Positions 60,936 to 61,838 of a stretch of 64,000 bases of DNA are shown one piece after another (the first letter of the stretch is position 1; every line of letters starts with the position of its first letter). The stretch is from Flavobacteriaceae bacterium (GTDB lineage: Bacteria; Bacteroidota; Bacteroidia; Flavobacteriales; Flavobacteriaceae). The notes under the pieces were generated by a model that ran no database searches, was not told where the DNA came from, and worked only from the letters and a program-made list of their open reading frames with translations. Both the position numbers and the translations under genes were made by a program. Where the stretch lies: contig JAHEKV010000004.1 of assembly GCA_024638165.1 (NCBI GenBank), positions 62,001 through 126,000 on the forward strand. The letters run 5' to 3'.

Positions 60936-61009
60936 CGGGATGTGGCGCAGTCTGGTAGCGTACACGCATGGGGTGCGTGTGGTCGCTGGTTCGAATCCAG
61001 TCATCCCGA
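60936..61009 (+). tRNA. tRNA-Pro (anticodon GGG), CCA not encoded
   Basis: CGGGATG/CATCCCG acceptor, GCGC/GCGT D stem, CACGC-ATGGGGT-GCGTG anticodon arm, GCTGG-TTCGAAT-CCAGT T arm, A73. Confidence 0.96.
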
Positions 61010-61140
61010 CAACAAATACAACCAACTTCTAAAATCGAAGATTTTAGCTAATAATTAGAAAACCGCTAGAGAGCTTGCTCTTTAGCGGTTTTCTTTTATT
61101 TGTTGTAACGTGGTTATCAGAAGTTGGTTGTGTTTGTTGT
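61009..61140. repeat. 22-bp inverted repeat bracketing the tRNA trailer and terminator
   Basis: ACAACAAATACAACCAACTTCT (61009-61030) vs AGAAGTTGGTTGTGTTTGTTGT (61119-61140), 21/22 complementary. Confidence 0.9.
61059..61101 (+). terminator. Rho-independent terminator downstream of tRNA-Pro
   Basis: AAAACCGCTAGAGAGC-TT-GCTCTTTAGCGGTTTT (61059-61092), 16-bp stem with one G-U, followed by CTTTTATTT. Confidence 0.85.
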
Positions 61141-61192
61141 CAAACTCCCCCAAGGATCTTTTACCGCTAGGTAAAAGAATCCAGCGAGTTAA
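61131..61192. repeat. 62-bp hairpin-bearing direct repeat, copy 1
   Basis: tgtttgttgtcaaactcccccaaggatcttttaccgctaggtaaaagaatccagcgagttaa; 58/62 identical to copy 2. Confidence 0.95.
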
Positions 61193-61243
61193 CTCTTAAG
61201 CGGTCTTTTTAATAGATAAGCACCAAGGGTGCAGAAAGAATAA

Positions 61244-61305
61244 TGTTTGTTGTCAAACTCCCCCAAGGATCTTTTACTGCTAGGTGAAAGAATCCAGAGC
61301 GTTAA
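61244..61305. repeat. 62-bp hairpin-bearing direct repeat, copy 2 (contains DUF2911 stop codon)
   Basis: tgtttgttgtcaaactcccccaaggatcttttactgctaggtgaaagaatccagagcgttaa. Confidence 0.95.
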
Positions 61306-61838
61306 AGGATACTTATAGGTAATCTAACCTCTTTGCTACCCCAACCAATTACTAGATGGTATCCGCCGCTTACATTGTCGAATCTAATAGATAACACTTC
61401 GATCTCTGCTTCTGATTTCTTGACCTCAGCATTGAAACGACCGAAATCTTTGGATTGATCATAGCTGTAGGCTCCCCAGGTGTGGAGTTTCTTATTTAAG
61501 ATCACCTTCCAATCACTTTCACCAGGAATAGTGTATAAACTGTAGGTGCCTGCCGGAATCTTTGTTCCTTGAATTTTCATGTCTTTGTAAAAAATGATTT
61601 CTGTGGTCTCATTGGCACCGGTACGCCAAACAGTTCCTTTAGGAGCAAGGCTTTCAAGAGTTCGCCCTTTCAGTTGTGGACGAGAGTAGAGTACGCGTAA
61701 ATCGGGATTAGACATTCGATCTGGGCGCGCATAGCTCATGTCTAATGGACTTTTATCAAGGTTTGCAAAGCCACTTCTTTGGGCATTTGCCATTGAAAAA
61801 CTGAGAACTAAGGCAAGAAGAAGGTATTTCATAATCAT
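61302..61838 (-). CDS. DUF2911 domain-containing secreted protein
   Basis: YSRPQLKGRTLESLAPKGTVWRTGANETTEIIFYKDMKIQGTKIPAGTYSLYTIPGESDWKVILNK. Confidence 0.92.
   Translation of the reverse strand: MIMKYLLLALVLSFSMANAQRSGFANLDKSPLDMSYARPDRMSNPDLRVLYSRPQLKGRTLESLAPKGTVWRTGANETTEIIFYKDMKIQGTKIPAGTYSLYTIPGESDWKVILNKKLHTWGAYSYDQSKDFGRFNAEVKKSEAEIEVLSIRFDNVSGGYHLVIGWGSKEVRLPISIL

Follow-up and report, generated by a model that had tools for sequence, protein, structure and literature searches.

RNase III processing stems occur around bacterial rRNA precursors, and bidirectional intrinsic terminators place a GC stem flanked by A- and T-tracts between convergent transcription units. REP and BIME elements are short intergenic hairpins that come in clusters. 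In E. coli, 3'ETS-leuZ, the 3' external transcribed spacer of a tRNA transcript, acts as an sRNA sponge (PMC8383071). The locus that we describe here, in a window of 64,000 nucleotides (the whole stretch of DNA analysed) from a member of the Flavobacteriaceae, recalls each of these systems and departs from each. It holds an element encoded directly 3' of a tRNA-Pro(GGG) gene and on the same strand, and its closest functional likeness would be to 3'ETS-leuZ, through an RNA from a tRNA trailer, predicted in our case from sequence; 3'ETS-leuZ is a simple trailer, whereas here there are a 130-nt covarying cloverleaf, an internal terminator and repeated conserved hairpins. One hairpin of the cloverleaf, H2, resembles a bidirectional terminator in its GC stem and its A- and T-tracts between convergent units, but the closing stem, hairpins H1 and H3, a C-rich linker and the repeated hairpin that we call M are extra, and M lacks a T-tract. 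The closing stem is like an RNase III processing stem in being long, perfect, constant in form and free in sequence, but it surrounds a terminator instead of a mature RNA, and cleavage is here a prediction. The M hairpins resemble REP and BIME in being short, intergenic and clustered, but occupy a single locus per genome.

An initial annotation had singled out two 62-bp copies, at 61131-61192 and 61244-61305, and both were recovered, identical at 58 of 62 positions with a start-to-start spacing of 113. They form only the last, 3' portion of a longer element, whose start lies at the 3' end of tRNA-Pro(GGG). Its parts and neighbours are given below; the eleven genomes of the genus are designated G000 (that of the window) to G010.

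60936..61010, plus strand: tRNA-Pro gene, anticodon GGG (ARAGORN; Rfam RF00005, 58.7 bits)
61008..61030, plus strand: closing stem, left arm (inverted repeat; covariation)
61029..61047, plus strand: hairpin H1, CTAAAATC-GAA-GATTTTAG
61057..61094, plus strand: hairpin H2, terminator-like, 17-18 bp and then TTTATTT
61105..61117, plus strand: hairpin H3, GTAAC-GTG-GTTAT
61119..61141, plus strand: closing stem, right arm (inverted repeat; covariation)
61142..61153, plus strand: C-rich linker, copy 1, AAACTCCCCCAA
61154..61182, plus strand: M copy 1, GGATCTTTTACCGCTAGGTAAAAGAATCC, 12 bp with a bulged A and a GNNA loop
61189..61254, plus strand: orphan right half of a second (A-type) cloverleaf, same sequence as the first right half in G004
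61255..61266, plus strand: C-rich linker, copy 2
61267..61295, plus strand: M copy 2, GGATCTTTTACTGCTAGGTGAAAGAATCC
61302..61838, minus strand: convergent DUF2911 gene (Pfam PF11138)

The tRNA-Pro(GGG) gene does not encode its CCA, the element begins flush at the tRNA 3' end, and a promoter-like TATTTTTG (TAnnTTTG), read by eye, stands about 10 nt upstream of the tRNA. Between the tRNA and the first M, the cloverleaf measures 129-134 nt and encloses its three hairpins with a closing stem of 22-23 bp, which in the window is the 23-bp inverted repeat 61008-61030/61119-61141. No other long inverted repeat like it stands in the 64,000-nt window. Since shuffled sequence gives about 0.9 inverted repeats per window at a minimum arm of 15, the notable feature is the 25-bp arm. 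The stem of H1 is unchanged in sequence across six genomes while its loop varies, and it occurs once in the genome. H2, called by a terminator scan and kept in the six genomes, has a GC stem preceded by an A-tract and followed by a T-tract, which suggests that it could serve as a bidirectional terminator for both convergent transcription units. H3 alternates between GCACC/GGTGC and GTAAC/GTTAC according to type, with two pairs changed on both sides. The CCCC run of the linker is the same in all distinct copies. Downstream, the orphan half contains the 3' half of H2, an H3 (61220-61232) and a right arm (61233-61254) and joins the first M at a short homology, GAGTTAA; the stop codon of the DUF2911 gene lies 7 nt past the second M. 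The three-hairpin cloverleaf is the minimum-energy form in G004, G010, G001 and G008; in the window the strands of H1 and H3 pair differently within the closing stem.

M itself is a 12-bp hairpin of 29 bases with a bulged A and, on the plus strand, a GNNA loop; the 62-bp repeat unit additionally takes in part of the cloverleaf's right arm (GTTTGTTGTC). Both copies fold as the initial annotation had it, as GGAT-CTTTTACY-GCTA-GGTRAAAG-(A)-ATCC, with plus-strand z-scores of -4.4 and -2.7. The pattern GGATCTTTNNCNGNNNGGNNAAAGAATCC matches twice in the window and in none of 100 shuffles, even when three mismatches are allowed; chance is excluded as its source. The two stem differences do become U-G pairs on the plus strand and A-C mismatches on the minus strand. 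The first copy folds at -13.7 kcal/mol on the plus strand against -12.8 on the minus; the second is much stabler on the plus strand (-11.2 against -5.2 kcal/mol), and its two changes thus favour that strand. Taken alone, the wobble argument for selection on a plus-strand RNA hairpin is weak, as two transitions would both be plus-strand wobbles about one time in four by chance, and these are the only wobble-type changes among all M copies. The selection claim itself is supported, chiefly by the conservation of the 29-mer, the GNNA loops, the covariation of the cloverleaf and a plus strand that folds more stably in six genomes of six. The loop, which had been called fixed, varies (GCTA, GCCA, GTGA) but always keeps its G and A at the two ends.

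How far does the element extend beyond the window? M is present in 13 copies in 7 of the 11 genomes, at one locus per genome: two copies each in G000, G004, G005 and G008, three in G001 (at spacings of 67 and 100) and one each in G010 and G003, the last at a contig end. The genome-wide search that had been proposed as a check found M in its own genome at this locus only. The surroundings are syntenic (murQ, GSDH, tRNA-Pro, the element, in some genomes a serine hydrolase, DUF2911, rhodanese and TrxR). The serine hydrolase adjoins the element in G001, G003, G005 and G008 and is missing in G000, G004 and G010; as this neighbour differs by clade, M belongs with the tRNA side and not with the convergent gene. 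In G002, G006 and G007 the tRNA is present but the element is absent, and in G009 the contig breaks before the locus. Of about 85,000 species genomes scanned, only six had M, all of them Flavobacteriaceae/Bacteroidetes MAGs whose contigs are the ones already described. When 301 genomes of the family were searched with a covariance model of M under stricter filters, this genus alone came up, the viral contigs, phages and plasmids searched gave no match to M, and no similar closing stem was seen at the tRNA-Pro loci of about 29 other genera. With the Rfam 15 covariance models only tRNA passes the gathering threshold, which sets aside any Rfam family; relaxed searches gave RAGATH-32 (E 0.15) and RsaA (E 0.26) in the window, below threshold, and Clostridiales-1 at 26.8 bits against a threshold of 48 (locus L006), and these matches are inconsistent between genomes. 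We found no literature on such an element in Bacteroidota. The cloverleaf-M element, limited to one uncultured Flavobacteriaceae genus, had no counterpart in RNA databases or in the other genera searched.

The conservation of M is of sequence. All 29 bases are identical among G000, G004, G001, G008 and G003; G005 differs in the loop only (GTGA), and G010 by one loop base and one stem base, an A-A mismatch that breaks one pair. The initial annotation had allowed that copies elsewhere might break the stem freely or that the element might be unique to this locus. Instead 12 of 13 copies have the stem intact and the remaining one lacks a single pair, and M, though confined to one locus per genome, is conserved over the genus. 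Protein identity between clades is 58-62% for GSDH and 52-56% for DUF2911, and fourfold sites are 26-42% identical, that is, saturated. That M is identical in spite of this indicates strong sequence constraint, and M appears to be held by its sequence. A 29-bp intergenic hairpin unchanged across species with saturated silent sites is a strong and unexplained constraint. The closing-stem arm whose end lies 12 bp short of M varies freely in its sequence between genomes, evidence against the region having been transferred recently as a whole. A constraint on sequence more than on structure is also what one would expect of a double-stranded DNA site, and we considered M as a palindromic operator or a site for an architectural protein (GGATnCTTTTACC-N4-GGTAAAAGnATCC), with the cloverleaf as a separate terminator region. 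One to three direct copies, a fixed locus and a long palindrome would suit it. However, M lies between convergent units and not in a promoter position, the genome has no further copies, the loop keeps G and A at its ends, and the one-base offset of the bulged A is found in all 13 copies, a feature that an ordinary symmetrical operator would not need. A DNA site is accordingly unlikely in our estimate, though well worth keeping in mind. One candidate of this type, the parS centromere site (TGTTNCACGTGNAACA), is not matched by M, and sites of the canonical type stand elsewhere, on G000:C21.

The cloverleaf is conserved in a different manner. Over six genomes 133 of the 134 closing-stem pairs are Watson-Crick, the exception being a G-T (T-G) pair in the window. 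Among the four A-type genomes 6 of the 22 pairs have changed on both sides and none on one side only, a level reached by 0 of 500 shuffles and compared with 1-2 pairs in slid controls. Taking the structure as a whole, 99% of cells pair, a figure that sliding lowers to 44-53%; RNAalifold finds double changes at 10 of 60 pairs. The cloverleaf has covariation support as a structured RNA, from four sequences in which template switching could mimic the signal. As to strand, G-U pairs number 13 on the plus and 1 on the minus, and the whole region in the window has z = -11.0 on the plus strand against -7.7 on the minus. The independent genomes number six, a small sample. One genome supplies most of the plus-strand wobbles, and the majority are plus-strand C-to-T changes, which transcription-coupled deamination of C on the non-template strand could mimic. 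From M itself there is no covariation support, its stem being nearly invariant.

Compensatory evolution would hardly be expected to leave arms this perfect, with very few G-U intermediates, and this suggests a process at the level of DNA. Replication template switching keeps stems perfect and yields double changes (PMC8794818), and the near absence of G-U pairs in the arms fits it. The whole region might then be a largely neutral, palindrome-rich terminator region shaped by template switching and tandem duplication, with M kept by conversion from copy to copy. Arms that change on both sides together, almost without G-U intermediates, are what template switching predicts (PMC8794818), and the array has visibly turned over: G000 reads tRNA, B cloverleaf, M, right half of A, M, and G004 reads tRNA, A cloverleaf, M, right half of B, M, the A- and B-type right halves thus standing in opposite order (window 61189-61254). 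M copies within one genome also tend to be alike, as with the GTGA loop in both copies of G005, which shows duplication or conversion to be active. Conversion within a genome, however, cannot hold M identical across species with saturated fourfold sites, and template switching, which does not explain the conservation of M or the plus-strand bias, has no obvious reason to favour one strand. We judge neutrality improbable as an account of the element, and think that template switching probably helps to keep the arms perfect. A closing stem that is perfect everywhere yet varied in sequence offers a clean, small test of compensatory selection against template switching. A strain-chimera assembly is an unlikely source of the orphan half, as the homology at the junction is only about 7 nt long and independent assemblies contain similar arrays.

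Several known classes were compared with the element and rejected. M is not an intrinsic terminator: the next sequence, AGCGAGTT.. or AGAGCGTT.., contains no T-run, and the terminator scan calls H2 and the orphan H3, not M. A REP/RAYT-linked repeat would need many dispersed copies, not one locus per genome, and a MITE is set aside by the single locus and by flanks in which no duplication was seen. An integron attC site needs RYYYAAC...GTTRRRY, and the ends read CGACAAC ... GTTGTC(A/T)AAC. A T-box-like pairing of the anticodon loop (UGGGGU with the linker CCCCA) would be fitted by any C-run, and the first M unit of G004 breaks the pairing. More broadly, the footprint of a mobile element, either MITE inverted-repeat ends or an attachment site for tRNA-targeting integrases, would explain why the element begins exactly at the tRNA 3' end, and G001 does carry an integrase element in the same tRNA. 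Yet the element has no other location in any genome and no match in phages or plasmids, and the sequence of its inner arm covaries at a fixed locus; we regard such an origin as very improbable indeed. The integrative element of G001 carries an integrase-like gene and is inserted in tRNA-Pro(GGG) (L087 on G001:C3; L079 on G001:C2, about 4160). The tRNA 3' end is duplicated there, and the cloverleaf and M now lie beside a tRNA fragment on another contig. The G001 cloverleaf, although separated from the intact tRNA gene by the integrated element, is still perfect; the integration may be a recent event.

What might such an element do? We favour, at a confidence that falls a little short of calling it probable, the interpretation that the tRNA-Pro(GGG) transcription unit yields a structured RNA peculiar to this genus, with the two hairpins as its 3' portion. 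Beyond the fold with its covariation, the plus-strand preference, the constraint on the sequence of M, the fixed locus and the restriction to the genus, all of which are shown, we infer for this RNA read-through, cleavage by RNase III, a binding partner and a function along the following lines. Most tRNA-Pro transcripts should end at H2, the terminator held in common with the convergent gene, and would then carry a single-stranded trailer that is easily trimmed. Read-through past H2 would allow the 22-23-bp stem to close, setting the cloverleaf flush against the acceptor stem of the tRNA. With about two helical turns, a form that is kept and a sequence that is free, the closing stem is a plausible substrate of RNase III. 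The C-rich linker and then one to three M hairpins would follow 3' of the cloverleaf. M would be read by sequence, probably as a docking or 3'-end-protecting hairpin for an RNA-binding protein or nuclease, and would sit just ahead of the point beyond which transcription would become antisense to the neighbouring gene. That this is a previously undescribed RNA element, in which a read-through tRNA-Pro(GGG) transcript, with its closed cloverleaf and GNNA hairpins, binds a dedicated protein and controls tRNA-Pro maturation or antisense RNA at the neighbour, is a more specific proposal, and a rather doubtful one. If H2 terminates well, little plus-strand RNA would get to the right arm and M, which counts against the model. 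The scarcity of G-U intermediates in the arms, the broken pair of the G010 copy and the G001 cloverleaf, still perfect though cut off from its intact tRNA gene, weigh against it too.

A regulatory function of another kind would place the activity in the linker, with CUCCCC as a C-rich seed for G-rich targets, stabilised by M and the cloverleaf in a small RNA derived from a tRNA trailer like E. coli 3'ETS-leuZ. The CCCC never varies, and the folds leave it mostly unpaired; several small RNAs use C-rich unpaired motifs, and a tRNA trailer can serve as a sponge for sRNAs (PMC8383071). But no Rfam sRNA is matched at threshold and no promoter was found. Flavobacteria, moreover, are not known for prominent use of G-rich Shine-Dalgarno pairing, and a seed of this kind seems to us fairly improbable. 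M stands beyond the tRNA terminator, and RNA from such a place usually counts as waste; if the element does act as RNA, it would show functional read-through of a tRNA terminator.

Other loci in these genomes show features that are of interest in their own right. In G009 a tRNA-Val(TAC) gene (L031, about 1520-1660) is followed by a cloverleaf-like inverted repeat of unrelated sequence (GCACACCAAAAGC/GCTTTTGGTGTG), absent from the G005 homologue. In G000 the 3' end of tRNA-Val TAC together with its terminator (about 55 bp) is directly repeated downstream (L044 on G000:C23, from about 1563), which resembles a tiny insertion or tandem duplication at the tRNA 3' end. Finally, most genomes of the genus carry two parS-like sites separated by about 1.89 kb (G000:C21:69874 and 71765, and their homologues).
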